NCBI RefSeq assembly: GCF_026914265.1
Contig: NC_069133.1
Coordinates: 50,667,182-50,731,181, forward strand
Direction: 5' to 3'
From: Mya arenaria
Lineage: Eukaryota > Mollusca > Bivalvia > Myida > Myidae
Length of the DNA stretch: 64,000 nucleotides
The translations under genes and the position numbers were made by a program. The notes below the pieces were generated by a model, which was not told where the DNA came from, did no database searches, and saw only the letters and a list, made by a program, of their open reading frames with translations. Positions 5,254-56,508 of the stretch are shown in pieces. How positions within the stretch are numbered: position 1 is the first letter of the stretch; each line of letters opens with the position of its first letter.

Positions 5254-8200
5254 CTGAAATTCAAAATTTACAAATAAATAATAAGGAAAACTTGCATTCC
5301 TGGATTTTTGCTTAGAGCACAATGTCATCCATTTCTGTCAGTCCAAAGAGCAAAACAGCCTTCCCAATGGTCATTCATTCAATCAAGAGTTATGTGCCTT
5401 GCTACAGTTCATGCATGCATATTAAATAGTCCTTGGTAACATATTAACCAAATTTCATGGATATTTTGTAATATTTTCAAATGGTTAATGTTTTTAATAA
5501 CATAGCAACGGCCTTCACTGACATTGATATAAAGTCTATTTAGTCTCAGGCTGTTTTTTTAATAAGTGTTTTTAACAAACCATCATTGCTTAAAAGATAA
5601 AGCACACTGATGAATAATCAAACCTGGAATGAAGCAGGTCTTAAGTCCTCCAATGGTGACTGGCAGTTTGGGTATGGCCTGTATATTAGGTTGGTAGGAT
5701 GTGAGACGCCCTGTGGCAGCAGCAGTCTGGTCCCAGTGAGTGTAGAGAGCTCCATCACGGACACAGGATAGCATACCATCTATGTAGGTAGACTTTAGCT
5801 TCTGTAGCTGGAACATACATACAGCTCATCATTATGCTCTTCATAATACTTGTAAGAAGTAAAAGTCTGCTAAACAATCACTGATACACATTTTTTTAAC
5901 TGTTTAATAGGATTGTATATGTGATGACTTGACATTAAACAAGAGAACAACATGTAATCAAACAAATGGGGGACTTATGTCTCGATCATTACTTTTTAAC
6001 TTGATTGATCTACAAGACTACAACATACAACAAAATTATAATACAGGGTGGCCTAATGTTACACATTTTTAGCTGCTAATTACATATATTCTTTGTAATC
6101 AAATTACATTTTAGTGTTTCAAGCTTAAAGTATGCCTCATAAAAACAACTATACTTAACTGTAATTTGAAAGCCATAAGTTGACCTTACTTTAACTGTCA
6201 ATGAACCATGTATTACCAACCTGTCTATGTTCCAACACAATGGCTGGAAGATCATGTAAGGGAGCTAACTGTGTAAGCACTGCCTCGGAAGTTGACGTCT
6301 CCTTGCCAACTGAAGTCTTTGCCAGTTTGGCACGGTTTGGAAGCTTGAGGTCAAGTTTGAGCTCCTCAAAGAGCACCTGGGAAGATGGTTATACAAAATT
6401 AAAAACATAAACAATATCATTTAACATATATATAACAAAACACCTATAAAAAAACAAACGTTTTACAGCTTCATTCTAGACAAAAAATAATACATTTTGC
6501 TTGACATTGCAATATGACAATGTTATATAAATATCTGGCTAAGGATTGAAGACCAGCAGGCCACCAGTGTTAAGACACATTAAGTATTTTATCTTTATTT
6601 GTCTCACTTGTGACTGTCTAGATTGGGTGTATTCCCTAACGTCTTGAGTCTGAGTTTTAGGCTCAGGCTCAGAAAAACTGCTTCAAAATATCTATAAAAT
6701 TACCAATTTTGACAAAAGATGCCTGATTATATGTGGCAGATACAGCCATCTTTGCATGTATAATAGCATTATTACAACAAAAATATTTTTTTGCTTTTCT
6801 GAGTCTGAGTCTCAAAATGCAATTATCGGCCCTTGTGGTGGACTCAGAGAAGGAAAACATGGCCTGCTGCCTTGTGGGCCAGCTGCTCCAACTGAACCAG
6901 CTTCCTAAAAATATAAGTTTCTATACTATCTCACCTGTCTAAGCTGGTGGTAACTGCTGAGAAGGAACACTCGGGCAGCTGCCGTGTGGGCATGTTGCTC
7001 CAACTGTAATTGGCCAATCAACATTTCTATACTATCTCACCAGTCTAAGCTGATGGTGATTGCTGAGAAGGAACACCCGGCCAGCTGCCATGTGGGCCAG
7101 CTGCTCCAACTGTACCAGCCTCTTTTGTAAGTGGCCAGTCAACCTTACTATACTATCTCACCTGTCTAAGCTGATGGTGACTGCTGAGAAGGAACACCCG
7201 GCCAGTTGCCATGTGGGCCAGCTGCTCAAACTGTACCAGCTTCTTTTGTAAGTGGCCAGTCAACCTTACTATACTATCTCACCTGTCTAAGCTGGTGGTG
7301 ACTGCTGAGAAGGAACACCCGGCCAGTTGCCATGTGGGCCAGCTGCTCCAACTGTACCAGCTTCTTTTGTAAGTGGCCAGTCAACCTTACTATACTATCT
7401 CACCTGTCTAAGCTGGTGGTGACTGCTGAGAAGGAACACCCGAGCAGCTGCCGTGTGGGCCTGTTGCTCCAACTGTAATTGGCCAATCAACATTTCTATA
7501 CTATCTCACCTGTCTAAGCTGGTGGTAACTGCTAAGAAGGAACACCCGAGCAGCTGCCGTGTGGGCCTGTTGCTCCAACTGTAATTGGCCAATCAACATT
7601 TCTATACTATCTCACCTGTCTAAGCTGATGGTGACTGCTGAGAAGGAACACTCGGCCAGCTGCCGTGTGGGCCTGTTGCTCCAACTGTAATTGGCCAATC
7701 AACATTTCTATACTATCTCACCTGTCTAAGCTGATGGTGATTGCTGAGAAGGAACACCCGGGCAGCTGCCATGTGGGCCAGCTGCTCCAACTATACCAGC
7801 TTCTTTTGTAAGAGGCCAGTCAACCTTACTATACTATCTCACCTGTCTAAGCTGATGGTGACTGCTGAGAAGGAACACCCGGCCAGCTGCCTTGTGGGCC
7901 TGTTGCTCCAACTGTACCAGCTTCTTCTATAAGTAAAACACCAGAGTCACAGTATAAAATAGGCTAAGGTCTACTTATTAATTACACAATGTGTTTTTTT
8001 ATAAACTTTCCCACAGGCAAATTCTTTAAGTTTACAAATCAACATTTCCTTTGTAAGAGGACTAGGAGTGTATTCCTATGCTCATCTGTGGTTGTTTTTT
8101 CATTCAAAACAGGGGCATAGCTCAACACTAATTGCATGACTGACAAAAAATGCCACTGTTAACACCAATGCTAAACTAAATGTTTATTGTCTGTTAACAA

Positions 8201-11200
8201 TTCAAATGTCCCAGCAACACAGTCAGGTCATAAACCTTTCACAGTCAGTATTAGGAAAGTTGTTACTTGTGTGGGTTTTTAAATGCATCCATTCTTATAA
8301 GAGCAGCTAGCTAGTGTATACAGAAGTCATGTGCTCTTGTTTACAACTTAGCATTTTAGTTTTAACTCAGATTATCCTTGCCCACTGCCTAAATTTCTTC
8401 GTCATAGGATTTCCAGCTTTTTGATCTGCTTTTAATTTACTGGCAGCTTATGCCAAAACGTGTTTTTTGCTCAACATTCTTTTGTGAAACATCAGATCTG
8501 GGATCCAAGCAATTTAACACATGTACACAATAAAATTAAATCACCTATTTTAGTATCAAAACTTTTTAAGGCTAAACTTATAATTACAGTGTCTCACCTT
8601 GAGAATGTCAGAAAGCTGTAGGAGTGTGTGCGTTGCCACGGTGAGTGGCCTCATCTCCATGGCAGCCAATAAAGGGGTCAGTGGGGCCTCAAGGTCATGG
8701 TACAGGGACCAAAGGCCACAGTTCTCCAACTTCTGCATAGATCATGAAACATCAAAATCATTATAACAATAAAGCATTTTTTATTCTAGAAATAAATTTG
8801 AACTCTGTTTTTAAATATTAATCACTCTGCACACAGATATGCCTATAATGAAAGCCCTGACTTTAATACTTATATACATCTAGAAATGTAATAACTTATT
8901 GTAGATCACCTAAACCATAATAACCTGTTTAACTCTGTTCCAGGCAACACCAAGCAGGGCCATATCACCAGAAAGGGCTGAGAGACTGGACTCACTAGGT
9001 GCCTGTAATGTAAATATATATGTATCACTGTGACCTTGACCTCAATAAAAAAGTAGAAATGCATCACAGTGTCACAAAGAACTTAAATAGAACTTCAAAA
9101 GTTTTAAAAAAACTATCCAGGCATGTCCTTTATCTTGCACAGTTAAGATAATATACTGTGACTTTGACCTAACAGTTAAGTTAAGAGATTTTGAGCTCGC
9201 TAGTTCAGAAATTTATGTGAGATATCTCAGTTAGACTGCAATGGCTAACTAAGTCAGGAAATCTTATTGTCACTATTAACTTGCAGTGAAAATAATTGAA
9301 GTGTGACGTTGAACTTGCAGAATTAATTAATCAAAGTGTGACCTTGAACTTGAACAGTTAAGAAAAGTTGAACCTTGAACTTATAATCTTAAGAAATCTA
9401 AGCGTAACATTTAAGATGCAATATTACTTAACCTTGACCTTAGAAATCTAAGCTATTATGCACCAACCAGTCTAGGGGTACTAATGTGTCAGTGAATAAT
9501 CACCCTGAAAAAGGGGCCTTCATACCTGTTGAGGCATATGTAATGCTGTAAGGAGCTGTGGGAAGCTGTTGACTGGTTTGTCTGGATCCAACAGCCACCA
9601 TCCCACACCGACATCATACAGTACCCAGTCTGGGGACACTAAGGTGTGGAACATTAAATGATCTCGGATAATAATTGTCCTATTTGCAGCATCTATTCCA
9701 AATATTAGAGTCCCAAAAATTACAATCAATCAATATTGAAGCAAGGAGAGAATCTTTAGTTACTTTATCCAAGTCACTTAATCAGTGTGTGTATACCATG
9801 TGATAAATTACGTCATATATGCTCTGTGGGAAGGCAACATTTTGCATAAAATGAAGACTTAAATCAAAGATAACTTTTCTTTTACTACACCATTTTAAAT
9901 CAAACAAAGGGTAGTCTATGCCACTTAAAGGGCCCTGCCTTCGTTTTATTACCGAAGTTTGATTAGGTGATTAGTTTCCTCAAACACTTCAACAAACCTG
10001 TTTCCATAATAATGTTTTGACAGTGCTCCGTCAGACAACCTTATTGTGAAAAGGTTTTTCGAAGTGTTTGAAGAAACTAAACTCTCAATCAAAATGTGGT
10101 AAAAGGCGGGGCTCTGTAAGAGGCGTAGACTAAAATGGTGAAGAAATAGTGAAGTTAGGTAGATAAATTAGGACAGCCTCATGAATAAGCTGTATATAAC
10201 CCACCTCTGATATACACTGTAACACATGTAAGTGTACAAGGCCAGCAATAATGATTGATCCACCTATCTGGACACTGTTTTCATTAGTTATTGAACGGAC
10301 ATGAATCTCACAGATATTTGCCTTTAATAATTATAAACTTGACCACTGCATGGTTACCAGAGAATCTGGCTTAAATATGAAATTTAAAATGATACCAAAG
10401 GAATGTGATCTATAAAGCTATTAAAACATTTTGGGTACTAAGACAACTTGATAATCCAAATAAAATCTAACAGTTATTATTTAACCACATCAAACAACAA
10501 TTTTGTTAACTTTACGAAATTCATTACTCAAAATGAATTAAAGAACTAGGGAAAGCATAGACTTCAATTTAAAGGGTATCGGATAAAGATTGTTCAGTTA
10601 TCTCCCTTACAGTCCAGGCTTACAAATTGTAAATGCAAAAAAATGTACCTTTGTCATGACAGAAGCCATGAGCATGGAGGATCTCAATCAGAGTGTCTTT
10701 CAAATGCATTCCAATCTTGGTAATAGATCTCTGCCCGAGAAACTTTTCCCAGAAGATTCTTAAAGTCAGACAGGAGATACAGATGAAAATTATTTTATTT
10801 ATTTTGCGAGGTCTTTTTTTCATCATTTTTTTCAGTCAGATTTCAGGTTTATAAAACATAGTGTAATTTCAATTTAACAATGCTTCCCTTCATTAAATGG
10901 CATAGCAACTTTTACATCTTACAAAAACTTTCTACAAATCAGACTCAGTATTCAAAGACCTACTTAAATAACACCTTCCTATCCTCATCTCTAAACCTGG
11001 TAGGGAACACAGCCAACTGGTTTCCATGGCAACCAAGAGGCATCACTGCCACACCTTCAACATCTGAAGTCTTCTTGGCCTTCCCAACAGCTGATTTCTT
11101 CTGTGAAAATAACAAAACAATAGTATAAATAACAACTTAAAGTGACTCTCTTATTCAAACCCAATACATACACATGTATAACAGACATAAATTTTAAGTG

Positions 11201-21409: not shown

Positions 21410-21503
21410 TGACAAGTTAGAAATTCATGGGAAAGCTCATGTAATACCGTTTAAACGCAAGTGGATCCTCTGTTTTGGCTGGTTCAGATAAAAAGGTGGA
21501 ACA

Positions 21504-23197
21504 ATGAAAGCTGTGCTTGTTTGTATATCTTTTATTTGCATTACTAACGTTTTCGTACATTCAAAGAAAAATAATAAACCACAATGTAATATACAAACAA
21601 AAACTGTGAAAAACAAACTGTTTCCATTGGTCGGAAAAAGCCGCGAGAAAAGACAAACTTGCAAAGAATATCGCGTTGTACATACAAATTTTCGGACCTA
21701 TTTTAAAAGCCTAATGGCAAACTATAGCAACTATGTTCCGCCGTACTATCCTAGTAAAGGCTGGCAAAGAGACGAAAACTTTGTACTAGACATTCGGATG
21801 CAACCGGAAGCGCTGGTTGATTTGAACGATGTGGATGAACGTATGACAACAGTTTTGAGCTTCCTTGTTGAATGGAAAGAATCGAATCTGGTTTGGGCTG
21901 GAATGAACACGTTTGTTTATTCGGTCATTCTCGACGCTGATATGCTTTGGAAGCCACACATCAAGGTCGGAAATCCACATACCAGTCAGAGAGTAAAGAC
22001 CGATACTAATGTAAGTTCAACTTTTGCAACTTAACATGTTTAATAAACGGCAATTTTAGGACGTTCATTTGATTAAGCACTGTTGACTTACATATAATAT
22101 AAACATGCATGTCTTTTTATGACGTTCACTTGATTTGACGGAAACGTAATATAGTAAATTCGATTTTTGATCATTTGTTGTTGTTGTTTGTTTTCAAAAC
22201 TTTGGGTATATATCTGTAAACTTAGGACCGCCCTGCTTTTTGTATTTTATATAATAATTTTATATTCCAGGACAAATTAACCCTTGAGTTTAAAGGTGAA
22301 GTCACATGGAGCTTTGTTTGGACAGTGGACACACGGTGCAAAATTGACATCACATATTATCCATTTGATCGCCAATATTGTCTAATCGTCTTGGTCCTCT
22401 CCAGCGATCTTAAAGACTATCTAAATTTTGACCATACCGTTCCTCATCTCGCACTAGACAACGGAAATTGGAAACACATGAATACTTCTATTTACAATTA
22501 CACAAACTACAAAACTATGAAAACGCATATCGTAATTGAATACACATTCGATAGAAAATCAGTAACACCTATGCTAGTTTTCATGGCTCCAGTAACTATT
22601 CTCGTGTCATTGTCGCCGTTAGTTTTTGTTCTTCCCAACGATGGATCGGAGAGACTCGGCATCGCAATGACCGTGTTGTTGGCGGTGTCCGTGTATATGA
22701 CTCTGGTCGTCGACAAGCTACCAGACTCCTCCGACCCGTTGCCGCTGATAACAACTGTCTTTTTTGCCTGGTACGTTTACAATGCTTTCGTTACGCTACT
22801 CGTACTAATTAACGGACGTATCTCCCGCATAAGCGATAAGCGATCAGTGCCTAAGTGTCTTCAATGCTTGGTTCGGTAAACACGTCGCTGCTTCTGTTTG
22901 GCTGATAAAAACTATACGTGTGTTGAATCTCGAAAAGAAGAAAATGCCCAATGCGAGGAAAACAATATGAGTATGAAAAAAATAACATGGAAAAGTGTAA
23001 GTTCCATGCTGGACAAATGGTTCATAATTTTATTGTACGCTTTGGAGATCGTTTACGCTTCTGTCGCCTTCGTTGTTCTTACTTCAGGAGGCAAAGACGG
23101 ACACACAGCCTACCGAGTTCCCGGGGATTTTATGGACGATCCATTTAGATCTTTTATTGGAGAAGCACAGAGTTACGAATGTACATTATGGGAATAA
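21504..23197 (+). CDS. Cys-loop (nicotinic-like) receptor subunit, copy 1, with one nonsense codon
   Basis: Pentameric ligand-gated ion channel subunit of the nicotinic type, expected at the plasma membrane. Exons are 21504-22010 (169 codons, donor GTAAGT) and 22271-23197 (acceptor TTCCAG), joined in phase 0. Seen in order: signal peptide (MKAVLVCISFICITNVFVHS), a short propeptide ending SREKR, the ectodomain, the Cys-loop CKIDITYYPFDRQYC (13 residues between Cys), M1, M2 (ERLGIAMTVLLAVSVYMTLV, Glu at -1', Leu at 9'), M3, a short loop and M4 (WFIILLYALEIVYASVAFVV). A TAA at 22877-22879 replaces the Leu TTA of copy 2 just after KCLQCLVR. The frame beyond is open to TLWE-stop. As read, the product would lack M4. 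It could be a null allele, a recent pseudogene or an assembly error. Confidence 0.85.
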
Positions 23198-25915: not shown

Positions 25916-28504
25916 CTACTTTGTACATTTTCCTAGAACCAAAAGGCATGGTTCACCGACAGAACAAAGCATGTCATCAGAACTCATCCAAATTGAATCA
26001 TCTTTGTTTGGCCATTTGAACGTTGGACATACTTTGCCCTTCCCGTGTTCCATAAAGGAAACTTGTAAGGGAAGTTCATCATCGGAAGGATCGTATTTTA
26101 CTACTTTGCCGATGTACCAGTAATCGTTGTAAATGGCTGCATCAAATTCATTTCCTGTGAATGACGACCTTGATTCGAGCCTTCTTGCCTGGTCAAGAAT
26201 GACTTCTGGTTCATTTTGAATATCTGTGTGCATGTCAGTTTCATTGGTTTTGCCACTTTGTTGTACAATGGTATGCTTGATCCACCCGTCACAGCTGGCA
26301 TTGAACTTCCCGTCTGTGAAACATTCTTCACAAAGGCATGAGGTATTCTTTACAAATATTTCATTGTTCCCCACCGGAAATACACTATGCAATTGCAATG
26401 TACCTTTGATTGGTTTAACATTAACTGCCAATAACTTATTGTAGGCTTCGTCACATTCTTCCTTTGTCACAAATGCGTACTTTGTCTGACTGTTAGCTAA
26501 CGATTTACCCCAGTTATAATAGTCTTCTGCTGACTGTATCACTGCTGTTTGCCGCTTGACCGCTAAATCGGCCAACCTCTTGGAAGAGCCCCCTACACCA
26601 TCGCATGGTCCTTTTCCGTGACCCGCTTCCCAAAACTGCCACGATGCGTTTAAACCAAAGAGTCGAACGTGATTTGCCACGAGATACATGGTATTCTTGT
26701 TTCTATATTGTGACGTGGGCGAATCAGTTATGTAGTGCACATAGGAGATTCCCGGATGTTCATTCTTTAAGCGTTCTGTAATTCTCTTAATAAATGCGTA
26801 CACTGTGCCCCTATTGTGAGACTGGGTATCTGATACATAAATGAAGGATTCGTGATTCAAGTGTTGATCTGAGCTTTTCGTGTATATAACAACCGGGTGA
26901 AGGGTGACGGAACATTTATCGAAGTATGCCGTTTGAATTTCATCAGCGTGACCGCAAGAATAATTCTCGGCGAAATCCATTTGGCAAATTGCGTGTGCTG
27001 GCGGTAGTCGCTCTTTTAAGCGTTGTACTTGTTCGAATTGGGTTTTAACACGTGATGTGTGACTTCTAAATTCGATCAGATCTTGTTTAAAGATTTCAAC
27101 AAATTCAAGTTTAGGCATTTCTTCCTGTGCAATTAACATTCGTTTTGTCAATCTACCTTTATGTTCAACTTCTTTTCTCTTCCATTGCCCAAATTTGATA
27201 GTGTCAGTGTTGCAGTTTAGAATTTTATCAACTATTTCATCATCAGAATATTGCCGAAACATCTGGTCAGGATTTTCCGTAGTAATGGCACCAACATTCT
27301 TCAACCCTTTAACTTTTAGGGCAGTATTTTGGTGTTTATGACAAAGGCAAGTTTTACGTGCGCTATATTGGACCAATTTGGCGTAACGAGGCCTGTAGCT
27401 TGAAAAAGTGGTTAAAGTTATTTTAACCCCAGGATTTTCCGCTTTAAATTTCAGATGGAGATTATACATATAATCATTCAAAACTCTTGTTTGCTTCATT
27501 CCCGTCTTCGTTTTTGTACTATCTCTCTTTCCTGGTAGACATGAACTGTTATCATCGCGTTCGAGAAAATCTCTTACCTTTTTGGCCAATTGGGTTCTTT
27601 CAAGGACTTGACGACGTTTTACAATGCTCTTTCCCATATCTGCTTTCAGTAGTTGGCCTCTGTTTACTCCCAGGACACGGCTTGATTTTGCTCTTAGGCG
27701 GTACTTTTTCATCAACTTTCCAGAGACCACCTCTAAGGCTTTGCGTTGACGAGATCTGCCTCGATTTTGAACTATTCTAGATTTTATCTCTTCCACTAAG
27801 CTGTTATGAAATGTCAATTTCTTGACAAGTCTTGTATGTTTTGCCGGTGATATGCCTAAATGTCGTAGCTCATGAATGGATTTGCTCTTCGGTGTCAGGT
27901 TTGCTTCGGAAAACGGTCGTTGTCTTACTTCTTCTTCAAGACTACAATGTCCCCCCTTTTTGCTTGATACTGATGCATTACTGCTTCTATTTGAATCGGA
28001 AGTGGTTCTCTGTACTTTCTTTCTAAGTGAATTGTTTCTCTTTCTTAGTTCACTCAACTGCCTTTCAAGCTTATTAATATTGACCTGTGCTTTCTTTAAA
28101 GATTGACTTTTCTTCCATTGGCCCCTTCTTGAACAAAATTTCATATTTACGAGAAGCCTCCTATCTTCTGTGACCGGCGTCCTGCTTTCATTCATGGCAC
28201 TAGTAGAATCACATGGCCCCCCGGATTGATCGTCAACACTTGCAAGTGATACATCTTGTATGATGTGTTCATTCTGTTCGCTTAATCCGTCTGCAGCTGG
28301 TTGTTCTTTCAACCTCCTCCGATGTTGCTGCATGCATTTTCTCACCCGTTCCCGTCTAATTGGCAGTTTATGAGGCCCAATCTCTGAGGTCGGTTTATAA
28401 TAACCTCTAACGCGATTTGTCTCCTTTTTAAGGTAGTCAGAACCTTCTTTGGCTTTCTTTCTTTCCCTATATGCCCTTTGAATCTCTGCACGTGTTTTCC
28501 CCAT
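25916..28504 (-). CDS. DDE-type transposase-like protein, intact, 862 codons
   Basis: A single uninterrupted frame starting at ATG 28504. The N-terminus is basic (MGKTRAEIQRAYRERKKAKE) with a Lys/Arg-rich coiled stretch at about 120-170. A CLCHKHQN cluster at about 385 may bind zinc. The core has three blocks typical of an RNase H-fold nuclease: MDFAENYSCG (about 509), ITDSPTSQYRNK (about 593) and EAGHGKGPCDGVGG (about 630), with Asp, Asp and a Glu/Asp as candidate metal ligands. Another Cys cluster (CLCEECFTDGKFNASC) follows at about 765. The last 80 residues (YWYIGKVVKYDPSDDE, VSFMEHGKGK, FKWP) look like a small Tudor or SH3-type barrel. I have seen this architecture in uncharacterised invertebrate proteins but cannot name the superfamily with confidence. 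The lack of breaks suggests a recent or still mobile element, or a host-adopted gene. Confidence 0.65.
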   Translation of the reverse strand: MGKTRAEIQRAYRERKKAKEGSDYLKKETNRVRGYYKPTSEIGPHKLPIRRERVRKCMQQHRRRLKEQPAADGLSEQNEHIIQDVSLASVDDQSGGPCDSTSAMNESRTPVTEDRRLLVNMKFCSRRGQWKKSQSLKKAQVNINKLERQLSELRKRNNSLRKKVQRTTSDSNRSSNASVSSKKGGHCSLEEEVRQRPFSEANLTPKSKSIHELRHLGISPAKHTRLVKKLTFHNSLVEEIKSRIVQNRGRSRQRKALEVVSGKLMKKYRLRAKSSRVLGVNRGQLLKADMGKSIVKRRQVLERTQLAKKVRDFLERDDNSSCLPGKRDSTKTKTGMKQTRVLNDYMYNLHLKFKAENPGVKITLTTFSSYRPRYAKLVQYSARKTCLCHKHQNTALKVKGLKNVGAITTENPDQMFRQYSDDEIVDKILNCNTDTIKFGQWKRKEVEHKGRLTKRMLIAQEEMPKLEFVEIFKQDLIEFRSHTSRVKTQFEQVQRLKERLPPAHAICQMDFAENYSCGHADEIQTAYFDKCSVTLHPVVIYTKSSDQHLNHESFIYVSDTQSHNRGTVYAFIKRITERLKNEHPGISYVHYITDSPTSQYRNKNTMYLVANHVRLFGLNASWQFWEAGHGKGPCDGVGGSSKRLADLAVKRQTAVIQSAEDYYNWGKSLANSQTKYAFVTKEECDEAYNKLLAVNVKPIKGTLQLHSVFPVGNNEIFVKNTSCLCEECFTDGKFNASCDGWIKHTIVQQSGKTNETDMHTDIQNEPEVILDQARRLESRSSFTGNEFDAAIYNDYWYIGKVVKYDPSDDELPLQVSFMEHGKGKVCPTFKWPNKDDSIWMSSDDMLCSVGEPCLLVLGKCTK

Positions 28505-28528
28505 GGGTCTGAAACATTAAATAATGCT

Positions 28529-36972: not shown

Positions 36973-37066
36973 TGACAAGTTACTAATTCATGGGAAAGCT
37001 CATGTAATACCGTTTAGACGTAAGTGGATCCTCTGTTTTGGCTGGTTCAGATAAAAAGGTGGAACA

Positions 37067-38776
37067 ATGAAAGCTGTGCTTGTTTGTATATCTTTTATTT
37101 GCATTACTAACGTTTTCGTACATTCAAAGGAAAATAATAAATCACCATGTAATATACAAACAAAAACTGTGAAAAACAAACTGTTTCCATTGGTCGGAAA
37201 AAGCCGTGAGAAAAGACAAACTTGCAAAGAATATCGCGTTGTACATACAAATTTTCGGACTTATTTTAAAAGTCTAATGGCAAACTATAGCAACTACGTT
37301 CCGCCGTACTATCCTAGTAAAGGCTGGCAAAGAGACGAAAGCTTTGTACTAGACATTCGGATGCAACCGGAAGCGCTGATTGATTTGAACGATGTGGATG
37401 AACGTATGACAACAGTTTTGAGCTTCCTTGTTGAATGGAAAGAATCGAATCTGGTTTGGGCTGGAATGAACACGTTTGTTTATTCGGTCATTCTCGACGC
37501 TGATATGCTTTGGAAGCCACACATCAAGCTCGGAAATCCACATGCCAGTCAGAGAGTAAAGACCGATACTAATGTAAGTTCAACTTTTGCAACTTAACAT
37601 GTTTAATAAACGGCAATTTTAGGACGTTCATTTGATTCAGCACTGTTGACTTACATATAATATAAATATGTATGTCTTTTTATGACGTTCACTTGATTTG
37701 ATTGTTAAACGGAATATAGTCCTATTATCGCTGTAAATTCGATTTTTGATCATTTGTTGTTGTTGTTTGGTTTCAAAATTTTGGGTATATATCTGTAAAC
37801 TTAGGACCGCCCGGCTTTTTGTATTTTATAAAATAATTTTATATTCCAGGACAAATTAACCCTTGAGTTTAAAGGTGAAGTCACATGGAGCTTTGTTTGG
37901 ACAGTGGACACACGGTGCAAAATTGACATCACATATTATCCATTTGACCGCCAAAATTGTCTAATCGTCTTGGTCCTCTCCAGCGATCTTAAAGACTATC
38001 TTAATTTTGACCATACCGTTCCTCATCTCGCATTAGACAACGGAAATTGGAAACACATCAATACTTCTATTTACAATTACACAAACTACAAAACCATGAA
38101 AACTCATATCGTAATTGAGTACACATTCGATAGAAAATCAGTAACACCTATGCTAGTTTTCATGGCTCCAGTAACTATTCTTGTGTCGTTGTTGCCGTTA
38201 GTTTTTGTTCTTCCCAACGATGGATCGGAGAGACTCGGCATCGCAATGACCGTGTTGTTGGCGGTGTCCGTGTATATGACTCTGGTCGTCGACAAGCTAC
38301 CAGACTCCTCCGACCCGTTGCCGCTGATAACAACTGTCTTTTTTGCCTGGTACGTTTACAATGCTTTCGTTACGCTACTCGTACTAATCAACGGACGTAT
38401 CTCCCGCATAAGCGATAAGCGATCAGTGCCTAAGTGTCTTCAATGCTTGGTTCGGTTAACACGTCGCTGCTTCTGTTTGGCTGATAAAAACTATACGTGT
38501 GTTGAATCTCGAAACGAAGAAAATGCCCAATGCGAGGAAAACAAAATGAGTATGAAAAAAATAACATGGAAAAGTGTAAGTTCCATGCTGGACAAATGGT
38601 TCATAATTTTATTGTACGCTTTGGAGATCGTTTACGCTTCTGTCGCCTTCGTTGTTCTTACTTCAGGAGGCAAAGACGGACACACAGCCTACCGAGTTCC
38701 CGGGGATTTTATGGACGATGCATTTAAATCTTTTACTGGAGAAGGACAGAGTTACGAATGTACATTATGGGAATAA
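37067..38776 (+). CDS. Cys-loop (nicotinic-like) receptor subunit, copy 2, intact
   Basis: The intact member. Exons are 37067-37573 and 37850-38776, 477 residues. Signal peptide at 1-20, furin-type site SREKR-Q at about 55, ectodomain with MTTVLSFLVEWKESNLVW and MLWKPHIKLGNP, Cys-loop CKIDITYYPFDRQNC, M1 (MLVFMAPVTILVSLLPLVFV), M2 (ERLGIAMTVLLAVSVYMTLV), M3 (ITTVFFAWYVYNAFVTLLVL), a loop of about 70 residues and M4 (WFIILLYALEIVYASVAFVV). Glu at -1' and the lack of a Pro-Ala insert in M2 predict a cation channel (family knowledge). The loop C region shows no adjacent Cys pair, so it is not a classical alpha subunit. The single intron lies just before the Cys-loop. The ligand is unknown. Confidence 0.92.
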
Positions 38777-46740: not shown

Positions 46741-48438
46741 ATGCAAGCTTGTTTGTATATCTTTTATTTGCATTACTAACGTTTTCGTACATTCAAAGGA
46801 AAAAAAAAATGATCACCATGTAATATACTTACAAAAAGTATGAGAAACAAACTGTTTCCATTGGTCGGAAAAAGCCGTGAGAAAAGACAAACTTGCAAAG
46901 AATATCGCGTTGTACATACAAACTTTCAGACCTATTTTAAGAGCCTTAGCGAACAATAGCAACTACGTTCGACCGTACTATCCTAGTAAAGGCTGGCAAA
47001 GAGACGAAAACTTTGTACTAGACATTCGGTTGCAACCGGAAGCGCTGGTTGATTTAAACGATGTGGATGAACACATGACAACAGTTATGAGATTCCTTGT
47101 TGAATGGAAAGAATCGAATCTGCTTTGGGTTGGAATGGACACGTTTGTTTATTCGGTCATTCTCGACGCTGATATGCGTTGGACGCCACACATCAAGCTC
47201 GGAAATCCACATGCCAGTCAGAGAGTGATGGCTGATACTAATGTAAGTTCAATTTTTGCAACTTAACATCTTGAATAAACTGCAATTTTAGAACATTCGT
47301 TTGATTCAGCACTGTTGACTCTGCGACATATAATATAAATATATATATATATTTTTGACGTCCATAGATTTAATTGTTAAAAGGAATAAAGTCTCATTAT
47401 CGCTGTAAATTCGATTTTCGATAATACAGTGTTTTTTTGCGGGTTTTTTAATCAAAATTGTTGGTAGATATCTGTAAACTTATGACCGTTTGGCGTTTTA
47501 AATTTTATATTATACATTTCAGGACAAAGTAATCCTTGAGTATGAAGGTCAGGTCACCTGGAGCTTTGTTTGGACAGTAGACACAAGGTACAAAATTGAC
47601 ATCACATATTACCCATTTGACCGCCAATATTATCTAATCGACTTGGTCCTCTCCAGCGATCTAGAAGATTATCTAAATTTTGACCATACCGTTCCTCATC
47701 TCGCATTAGACAACGGAAATTGGAAACACATAAATACTTCAATATATAATTACACAAACTACAACACCATGAAAACGCATATCGTTATTGAAAACACATT
47801 CGATAGAAAATCAGTAACACCTATGCTAGTTTTCATGGCTCCAGAAACTATTCTCGTGTCATTGTTGCCGTTAGTTTTTGTTCTTCCCAACGATGGATCG
47901 GAAAGACTCGGCATCGCAGTGACCGTGTTGTTGGCGGTGTCCGTGTATATGACTCTGGTTGTCGACAAGCTACCAGACTCCTCCGATCCGCTGCCGCTGA
48001 TAACAACTGTCTTCTTTGCCTGGTACGTTTACAATGCTTTCGTTACACTCCTCGTACTAATCAACGGACGTATCTCCCGCATAAGCGACAAGCGATCGGT
48101 TCCTAAGTGTCTTCAATGCTTGGTTCGGTTAACACGTCGCTGCTTCTGTATGGTTGATAAAAACAAATAGTTTATTGAATCTCGAAAAGAAGAAAATGTC
48201 AAATACGAAAAAAACGAAATGAGTTTGAAAATAATAACGTGGAAAAATGTAAGTTCCATGCTTGACAAATGGTTCATAATTTTATTGTAGGCTTTGGAGA
48301 TCGGTTAGGCTTCTCTCACCTTCGTTGTTCTTACTTCAGGAGGCAAAGACGGACACACAGTCTACCGAGTGCCCGGGGATTTTAGGAACGATAAATATAA
48401 ATCGTTTACTGGAGAAGCACAAAGCTACGAATGTACAC
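46741..48438 (+). pseudogene. Cys-loop receptor copy 3, pseudogene
   Basis: Homologous to copies 1 and 2 throughout (exons about 46741-47242 and 47523-48438) but decayed. A 4-bp deletion after the ATG shifts the signal-peptide frame, a 1-bp deletion lies at about 46950, and both Cys of the Cys-loop are Tyr (YKIDITYYPFDRQYY). TAG follows VDKNK in the M3-M4 loop, a second TAG falls inside M4, and the normal terminal stop is lost. Splice sites and M1-M3 are well kept (ERLGIAVTVLLAVSVYMTLV), so inactivation is fairly recent. It could still be transcribed. Confidence 0.85.
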
Positions 48439-53927: not shown

Positions 53928-56435
53928 TTATTCCCATTTAACGCATTCATAGTTCTTTGTTTCTTCTTTGAATTTCAGAAATCCTTCATCGAAGTGAAAA
54001 CCCGTCGGAACTTCAAAGGGTTTGTGTTCATCTTTATACCCTGTTGAAAGAATAAAGAAGGCGACAGCTGAATAACCCAGCTCCAATGCATACAGCAAAA
54101 TAATCACCCATTTATCAATTATTGAACTAACATTTGTCCATGAAATTGTTCTCACAATATTCTCATTTTCTTGCAATTTCTCGTTCATATCCATGTTAGA
54201 GCATTTGCGATTTTTCTCGGGCTGTATGTTGATGTGCGCATCATTTACATCGTTATTTCCATCAGAAGGGAAGTTCATGCAGATGCAACGACGTGTTAAG
54301 TAAGGTAAACCTTGAAGACGTACTGGTACCGCTTCTTGAATACCTTGAAGACGTACTGGTACTGCTTCTTGAAGGCCTTGAATACTTATTGGTATCGCTT
54401 CTTGAAGGCCTTGAAGACTTACTGGTATCGCTTCTTGAAGACCTTGAAGACTTACTGGTACCGCTTCTTGAGGGCCTTGCAGAGTTTCTGGTACCGCTTC
54501 TCTAAGACATTGAAAACGTACTGGTTTCGCTTCTTGAGGACATTGAAGATGTTCTGGAATCTCTTTTTGAGGACCTTGAAGACGTAATGGTACCGCTTCT
54601 TTATTATTTGTATCAGTTTAATTTTCTTGGCCATTTCCGGTTTCAAACGCACTAAGAAAAACGTTTTTCTCAGCAATACAGAAGCATCGTCGGGAAAAAT
54701 TAACAAAATCTTGAATACATATCGGGACAGGTCGCTTTTTGCCTAGGCGGTATATCTTTCCGTTAACTATAACGAGGAGTGTGATGAAGGCATTGTAAGC
54801 GTACAATGCAAAAAAGACGGTTGTTATGAGTGGCAGCGGTTCTGAGGAATCCGGAATCTTGTCGACAACCAAAGTCATGTACACTGACACCGCCAACAAC
54901 ACGGTTAGGGAGATACTTAGTCTGTCGGATCCGTGATTTGGAATCATAAAAACGAAAGGCAATATCGAAATAAGGATGAATGCAGGAGCTATGAAAACAA
55001 GAACTGGTTTGACTGATTTCCTGTCGAATGTATATTCTATTATGAAATGCGTCTGCATGACTTTGTAATGTGTGAAGTTGTAAATTGACGTCGAAACATG
55101 TTTCCAAATTCCATTGTCTAGCCCATTCTGTAAAGGGTCATGATGGAAACTAATGTAGTTTTTAAGATCGCTTGAAAGAACCAACTCTATACGACAATGC
55201 TGCCGGTCAAAGGGAAAGTATGTGATATCGATGTTGCACCTTGTGTCCACTGTCCAAACAAAGCTCCAAGTCACTTGCCCTCTGAAGTCAAGCAGAATCT
55301 TTTTCTGAAATATAAAAATTAACATACTTTAACAGAGTATGGATGCATCAATGTGGTAAGTGTAAATAATTAAAGACGTGTTGTTTGACCTAAACATTTG
55401 ACTCTTGTCAAGCTATCTCGATATTTTTCGCGTTCTGAAACTCGTCTTGAATGACATTATCATACCTCTTAAGAGCTAACATTGTTGCACCGGCTTGGTT
55501 AATTCGTATACAGAAAATATTTGAATCCGGTCGATGAGTACTTGAAATTGGTTAATCAGTTTACTATGTGTTTAATATGTTACTTTTTCATTACTCTTCA
55601 TTGTTTTCAAGTCAATGCGTGTTCTGATGAGACTTATATTTTTTTTTATTTAGTAATTCTCTGGGCTCCCCTCGACAGGTTTAAAAAGATTTCAGCACTG
55701 AGCAAAGGTCGTGAACATTTACCAGGGGTATAATAATAATATTACAGCTTTAACTCATGCAGCTAAATCGATCAGGAAAAAGTTCGGAGAAAAAAAGTCT
55801 GATTTATTTTAAACCTTTTAAAGGTCAAATATAGGCTAATATTTTGCCATACATGCAATGGCACAATCAAACACATTCTAAAAGAAAGAAAAACTTACAT
55901 TTTTATCTAATATGTTATCGGCCATCGATTGTCTCCCAACTTGTGGATTTCCAACCTCAATGTGCGGTTTCCAAATCATATCGGAGTCAAGGATGACGGA
56001 ATAAACAAACGTGTTCTTTCCAACCCATACCAAATTCGAGTCTTTCCATTCGACAAGAAATCCCAAAACCGTAGTCATCCGTCCATTTACATCGTCTATT
56101 TCAACCAGCACTTTAGCATTCATGCGAATTCTCAGGGCAAAGCTCTCATCTCGTTCGTATCCTTCATTTGGATAATAAGGTGGGACGTATTTGCTATAGT
56201 TCGACATCAGAGTTTTGAAATACTTCCGAAAATTTGTATGAACAACACGTCGCTCTGTGCAAGTTTGTCTTTTACGACGAGTGTTTTCAATTAAAGGAAA
56301 CGTTTGATTGTTTTCGCTATTTTCCTGACCGTCAGAATTGGTATATCCTTTTTGTGCGCAAAGAACGCACACAATACTGAATAAAAGAATAAAAAAAAGA
56401 AATAGGCTCATTTTCATATCTTGCAAGTACCTCAA
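53928..56435 (-). CDS. Cys-loop receptor subunit, copy 4, with stop codon and minisatellite in the M3-M4 loop
   Basis: A diverged paralogue with the same two-exon layout: 56435-55899 (donor GTAAGT) and 55304-53928 (acceptor TATTTCAG), phase 0. It has a signal peptide (MKMSLFLFFILLFSIVCVLC), furin-type site NTRRKR-Q, ectodomain, Cys-loop CNIDITYFPFDRQHC, M1, M2 (DRLSISLTVLLAVSVYMTLV), M3 and M4 (WVIILLYALELGYSAVAFFI), ending YECVKWE. After M3 the frame reads VPICIQDFVNFSRRCFCIAEK to GNGQEN, then TAA at 54620-54618. Past this stop the same frame stays open through nine 11-residue repeats, a second RRCIC block and M4. Either the stop truncates the protein before M4, or it is spliced out, read through or an error. 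Start Mets at 56435, 56417 and 56411 are all possible. Confidence 0.85.
54304..54603 (-). repeat. 33-bp minisatellite in coding frame of receptor copy 4
   Basis: Nine units of 33 bp. On the coding strand each reads as a version of EAVPVRLQGLQ, in the receptor frame on both sides. The last unit runs into LPYLTRRCIC. The core VP-x-x-LQ-x-L lines up with VPKCLQCL, which precedes RLTRRCFC in copies 1-2, so the repeat seems to have grown from the gene's own post-M3 sequence. Confidence 0.8.
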
Positions 56436-56508
56436 CTCATAACATCATTCATTTTCATTGCGGTCAGGTTAACAAACGGAAATAAACGCAGCAGAAAAAA
56501 TTAAAAGC

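Follow-up and report, generated by a model that had tools for sequence, protein, structure and literature searches.

A thumb exon of the clam DNA polymerase nu gene repeated in nine tandem copies within a minisatellite-like array

Genes in which a coding exon has been copied head-to-tail are described as cases of tandem exon duplication (PMC9013439), and exons whose donor lies far under ~50 nt from the branch point, as in OGDH (PMC7969005) and in a human survey in which 57 clusters (9%) fall under this approximate threshold (PMC5740500), are described as mutually exclusive through steric hindrance. Among invertebrates, in-gene duplications of exon 4 are reported for an earthworm metallothionein, where they are said to be absent from the transcript (PMC12783039), and a duplicated exon in a bivalve, that of oyster AOX, yields two mRNAs (PMC5589949). 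Gene structure altered by minisatellite expansion has been reported for human segmental duplications (PMC2812944). The array of exon copies in the POLN gene of Mya arenaria resembles each of them and also departs from each. It differs (i) from tandem exon duplications in comprising nine near-identical copies that are 37–40 nt apart, minisatellite-like and of unproven use, (ii) from steric-hindrance exons in that its inner acceptors are weak and that exclusion would reach only neighbours among the nine, (iii) from the earthworm metallothionein, which has two duplications, one of them inverted, (iv) from oyster AOX, a different enzyme whose duplicated exon is shown to be expressed, and (v) from the human case, which concerns paralogs and no polymerase exon. 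In a non-exhaustive search of open-licence PMC papers, neither this array nor a DNA polymerase with alternative thumb exons was found to have been reported.

The DNA analysed, hereafter the window, is a stretch of 64,000 nt. The gene lies on its minus strand, from ~15926 to past window position 1, with 16 exons inside the window, all open and with compatible frames (the E3 acceptor and the E2 donor, and thus the edges of these two exons, are uncertain). Its product finds its best solved match in human DNA polymerase nu (4xvi; E 3.9e-81), followed by a thermostable DNA polymerase I (E 9.2e-39); the best match is POLN across the polymerase domain, with a Pfam DNA_pol_A score of 119.6 bits, which bears out the identity proposed in an earlier note on this sequence. 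Of the tenth exon, which is in phase 0-0, there are nine complete copies, lettered A to I in the order of the gene, and a tenth, decayed copy J, all at 6836-7926 on the minus strand (Table 1), as that note had likewise counted. The nine share a 69-nt core directly followed by GTGAGATAGTATAG and differ pairwise at 2–10 of the 69 nt; J is 85.7% identical to A across 70 nt. Being adjacent, homologous, equipped with splice sites and in the same phase, the copies constitute a tandem exon duplication, and with highly identical tandem units of tens of nucleotides or more (TRF: 121 nt x 8.1, 90%) they constitute a minisatellite as well. Among the best-scored candidates of a DNA search of the whole genome (1,216,080,610 bases, 18 contigs), no second site of the array was found, and the rest of the 16 POLN exons showed no second copy within the locus at E<=0.01. 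The matching Mya arenaria genome is described as 1.22 Gb in 17 scaffolds, sequenced with PacBio (PMC10663159). The MITE-like repeat just beyond J gave at least 47 match rows genome-wide, its own copy counted.

Table 1. Exon copies and flanking features of the POLN array (window positions).
Feature	Positions	Strand	Donor start	Description
POLN exon E9	8598..8732	(-)		upstream of array, ends in phase 0
Copy A	7843..7926	(-)	7842	84 nt, 28 aa (KKLVQLEQQAHKAAGRVFLLSSHHQLRQ); ancestral length; both splice sites strong
Copy B	7722..7802	(-)	7721	long form hits in-frame TAG; open as short form 7722-7790 (23 aa)
Copy C	7616..7684	(-)	7615	short, 69 nt, 23 aa
Copy D	7510..7578	(-)	7509	short, 69 nt, 23 aa
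Copy E	7404..7472	(-)	7403	short, 69 nt, 23 aa
Copy F	7283..7363	(-)	7282	long, 81 nt, 27 aa
Copy G	7162..7242	(-)	7161	long, 81 nt, 27 aa
Copy H	7041..7121	(-)	7040	long, 81 nt, 27 aa; exon end altered to CTG before GTGAGA
Copy I	6935..7003	(-)	6934	short, 69 nt, 23 aa
Copy J	6836..6904	(-)		decayed remnant; U-rich acceptor retained out of frame, donor lost
MITE-like dispersed repeat	6629..6816	(-)		22-nt terminal inverted repeats, just beyond J
POLN exon E11	6221..6376	(-)		downstream of array

The gaps between the copies fall into two types, distinguished by several sites, and all begin with GTG AGA TAG, so that retention of a gap is stopped in frame, in agreement with the stop noted previously at the start of each gap. 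The introns between neighbours measure 37 nt before the short copies C, D, E and I and 40 nt before the long copies F, G and H; the intron from A to B is 40 nt long if B is entered at its long-form AAG and 52 nt long if it is entered at the start of the short form. The 37–41 nt given before for all gaps thus fits these introns but overlooks the inner acceptor of B, F, G and H (CAG, or TAG in B, before TTGGAG/TTTGAG), which gives an intron of 52 nt. Copy B is open solely as the 69-nt form, its long form containing an in-frame TAG, which agrees with the earlier note's description of its copy H as open in the short form only. All copies are open in at least one form, but they are not equivalent: they encode 28, 27 or 23 residues and their acceptors are unequal.

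Splice-site strength was assessed with an acceptor matrix from 21 POLN and POLQ sites, assigned from frame and homology rather than from transcripts, and ranks are percentiles among 1005 other AG sites of the locus. The acceptor of copy A, at the 99.6th percentile, is the sole strong one with an intact frame; that of J (93.6) is good but in the wrong frame, and J has no donor. The acceptors of the short copies C, D, E and I rank at 51.0, the long-form acceptors of B, F, G and H at 17.5–26.8, below all 21 training sites, and the inner short-form acceptors of the same four at 5.3–34.1. The training acceptors themselves range from 39.9 to 100 when left out one at a time, with three of the 21 at or below 61.3 (E7 39.9, Q10 49.6, E3 61.3); the short-copy acceptors overlap these weakest sites, and use of the short copies is thus possible. 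An earlier matrix built from 14 sites had placed A at 98.5 and the others at or below 25, with the short copies ranked lower; we prefer the 21-site version. The donors score 10.3 in A–G and I and 7.3 in H, while 15 other donors score -0.2 to 10.9 under the same leave-one-out scheme. The copies had been called splice-competent, which holds for their donors but not equally for their acceptors: splice sites comparable on every copy, as mutually exclusive exons would have, were not found among the nine, A standing at 99.6 and B–I at 51 or less.

Within the exon, copy A aligns without gaps to human POLN (4xvi). Relative to A, the long copies F, G and H lose one residue and the 23-residue copies lose five residues of the thumb, and a Gly common to human POLN, Taq and clam POLQ is Ala in B, D, E and I. 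The array exon precedes the motif VLFEELKL, the equivalent of which in clam POLQ is VLFIELKL, followed by PPNG. By comparison with the human POLQ sequence, the array exon would lie just before Insert 1, inside the thumb. The POLQ thumb is given as 2093-2217 and Insert 1 as P2144-F2177 (PMC11080051). By this homology the alignment supports the thumb location in POLN that had been suggested earlier. When a single spliced form of each copy was scored against Pfam DNA_pol_A, the long form in the case of A, F, G and H and the short form otherwise, A obtained 119.6 bits, followed by C 112.3, E 109.6, F 109.5, D 108.6, G 108.2, I 107.7, H 104.5 and B 102.1, as compared with 88.0 when the exon is skipped. 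All nine spliced forms still match the family; hence none is excluded as a protein.

We consider it likely that the array is an exon-anchored minisatellite that has grown into the downstream intron, with copy A as the working exon and the rest mostly skipped. What supports this reading is that copy A has the sole strong in-frame acceptor, the gap-free alignment to 4xvi and the best DNA_pol_A score, that changes among the copies fit neutrality, that long-period tandem repeats make up a tenth of the sampled background, that exon copies occur also in POLQ and near one helicase exon, and that no docking site for the gaps was found. Against it stand a pN/pS of 0.47, gaps that vary less than the cores, short-copy acceptors close to the weakest training sites, the duplex score of core A (z -1.91), and a background that is uneven, with two of six sampled stretches and L024 free of arrays of period >=30 and the window low in them. 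The copies, their lengths, their splice-site scores, their genome context and a small background rate are direct observations, from which we infer the route of expansion, the default use of copy A and the skipping of B–I. An initial tandem duplication would have taken in the exon, its donor and a short piece of the next intron, and unequal exchange would then have multiplied units of ~106 and 121 nt until eight additional complete copies and a remnant had formed, the whole expansion taking place inside the former downstream intron. Copy A would still have the upstream intron, the acceptor and the reading length with which the exon started, and is in all likelihood the exon normally used, joined as E9-A-E11. 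Copies B–I would each combine the strong original donor with a makeshift weak acceptor; because their acceptors are weak, they should be mostly skipped, and occasional in-frame inclusion of one or several of them would amount to noise.

Arrays of this kind are part of the genomic background. In six 8-kb clam stretches whose positions were picked blind (48 kb in total), arrays of period >=30 cover 4808 of 48000 bases, two of the six stretches being without any; one array is of 112 nt x 7.7 (91%), while further arrays have units of 45, 50, 63 and 75 nt in 6 to 13 copies. A further array of 106 nt x 7.9 (L031) was dropped as a second description of a co-located 36-nt array. Elsewhere the coverage is 0 of 10000 bases in L024 and 1772 of 9901 in L025, and in the window it is 1381 of 64000, mostly the POLN array itself. 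Nearby exon-derived copies at E<=1e-5 were found for 2 of 12 exon stretches in POLQ, for 1 of 17 distinct exons of helicases and for 1 of 16 POLN exons, and a third POLQ stretch (Q09) has a weaker nearby copy (E 6.9e-4). The helicase set comprised 30 loci, 13 of which were near-identical and were dropped, with copies sought within 1.5 kb; some of these exons may be transposon-borne and the copy may not be intronic. The POLQ and helicase cases thus indicate, with small numbers, that exon-anchored duplication is not peculiar to POLN in this genome.

Two POLQ exons deserve separate mention. Upstream of the exon encoding VCYGMIYGIG there are 17 matches of 24–37 nt to its start at 82-nt spacing (C6:4654147-4655540), and eight of the 17 carry a 20-nt acceptor identical to that of the real exon; this is the mirror image of the POLN array, acceptors being repeated instead of donors. 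The POLQ counterpart of the array exon is followed ~125 nt downstream by a partial tandem copy of itself, now decayed (L025:7861-8150, C6), and it is curious that the homologous exon should be duplicated in both genes. This paralogous exon was not among the hits of the protein search at E<=10 and was located by reading the locus. A 14-nt minisatellite of ~206 copies lies at L024:5483-8337, flanked on both sides by what can be read as later POLN exons.

Fourteen of the 69 core columns vary among the copies, nine nonsynonymously and five synonymously (p 0.16-0.26 against neutrality); by our own count the changes are 10 nonsynonymous to 5 synonymous, the neutral expectation being 75–79% nonsynonymous (p 0.20-0.31). 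The mean pairwise pN/pS of 0.47 is in the direction of constraint. Assuming 16 random changes, the probability that all nine frames stay open by chance is 0.52-0.58. Neither the open frames nor the substitutions depart from neutral drift. The data do not tell constraint or diversification apart from neutrality, nor constraint from a recent amplification in which copies exchanged sequence. When C, D, E and I are taken as one class and B, F, G and H as another (A falls in neither), variation within classes affects 1 of 77 gap columns and 13 of 138 core columns (Fisher p 0.02, post hoc), a possible sign that splice signals have been kept, though the two gap types are themselves different.

Alternatively, A and B–I might all serve as alternative exons, one copy or a set of non-neighbouring copies being chosen per transcript, with neighbours excluded by the closeness of donor and branch point, to give POLN isoforms with different thumb helices. 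We regard this as unlikely, although it has several points in its favour: the nine donors are intact, every copy is in frame in at least one form, pN/pS is 0.47, and the duplicated exon of oyster AOX provides a bivalve precedent for splicing (PMC5589949). In addition, a likely branch point, TTGAT/TTGAC, lies 22 nt from the donor by our own count; it fits the consensus (C/T)TNA(C/T) (PMC4463651) and its distance is under the steric threshold of ~50 nt between donor and branch point (PMC7969005; PMC5740500). Steric exclusion of neighbouring copies is plausible on these grounds, which supports the earlier note where it held that neighbours should be hard to splice together. Its further claim that each transcript would contain just one copy finds no such support. 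Non-neighbouring copies are at least 143 nt apart. Hindrance between neighbours leaves 88 non-empty combinations of copies, of which nine consist of one copy, and none of the 88 shifts the frame, the length of each copy being divisible by three; mutual exclusion hence does not follow from steric hindrance. Nor was a docking or selector RNA structure found for the gaps when the two gap types and core A were paired with both flanking introns (six duplex tests, 200 shuffles each), the gaps giving z -0.08 to 0.88. Core A against the downstream intron gave z -1.91 (3.5% of shuffles), which is not significant across six tests, and was set aside. Neither the spacing, of at least 143 nt between non-neighbours, nor RNA pairing of the gaps provided a device that would prevent joint inclusion of any two copies; one of another kind, such as a regulatory protein, might do so. 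What weighs further against alternative exons is that the inner acceptors are weak, that the changes fit neutrality, that the additional copies lose one or five residues and fit the family less well, and that the shared Gly is replaced by Ala in B, D, E and I.

The notion that several copies are included in one mRNA, giving a thumb with a variable number of 23–28-residue repeats, strikes us as decidedly improbable. The phase 0-0 of all copies, the introns of at least 143 nt between non-neighbours and the 52-nt introns that the inner acceptors of B, F, G and H make with the previous donor would allow it, and in humans the splicing of introns of 43, 49 and 56 nt has been reported (PMC4463651); but the acceptors are weak, and an insertion of 23 or more residues into the thumb would probably be disruptive. 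Even less credence is due to the idea that the array acts as a decoy, its extra donors reducing correct POLN splicing and thereby braking expression, with an exon extended to a later donor meeting the TAG. Nine donors do face a single strong in-frame acceptor, each gap does start with an in-frame stop, and inactive splice variants are said to make up most human somatic POLN transcripts (PMC5472330). However, such splicing is purely hypothetical, and exon definition would be expected to favour the 84-nt exon A. Arrays of the minisatellite type are often variable in length, and the copy number rests on one assembly. That it is an assembly artefact is nevertheless the most improbable reading of all, since the copies differ from one another by 2–10 of 69 nt and an array of ~1.1 kb is short for reads of PacBio, the technology of the matching genome (PMC10663159).

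If the array is an exon-anchored minisatellite, it represents a minisatellite born from a coding exon in a gene that is not visibly broken. Were the extra copies used after all, they would provide an alternative thumb in a DNA polymerase whose gene has been linked to a transmissible cancer and for which RNA-seq data are public (BioProject PRJNA874712; PMC10663159). A POLN homologue is reported there as the polymerase most highly upregulated in the clam transmissible cancer as compared with hemocytes, a result restated in PMC11978232, and the known error bias of human POLN is said not to match the cancer's signature (PMC10663159). One may speculate that several of the nine copies are used, alone or combined, to give POLN with different thumb helices, and that this isoform mix contributes to the unusual mutational signature of the cancer, but we consider this a long shot.

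Several observations were made beyond the POLN locus. Searches for MutS and polymerase B gave exons in pairs whose scores are the same or nearly so and whose members lie within a few Mb of each other (C6 29.8/32.5 Mb; C6 19.7/20.9 Mb); these may be real duplications or retained haplotypes. An open frame of 866 residues with a basic N-terminal part lies on the minus strand of the window at 25916-28516. Four further stretches of the window, at 21492-22879, 37055-38776, 47502-48170 and 53928-56444, appear to be copies of a gene which, from its sequence, we take to be nicotinic-receptor-like; the first two, ~15.5 kb apart, have near-identical open frames at their start. By one receptor-like stretch, at 54309-54601, a 33-nt repeat x 8.9 lies within an open frame and gives 11-residue repeats.
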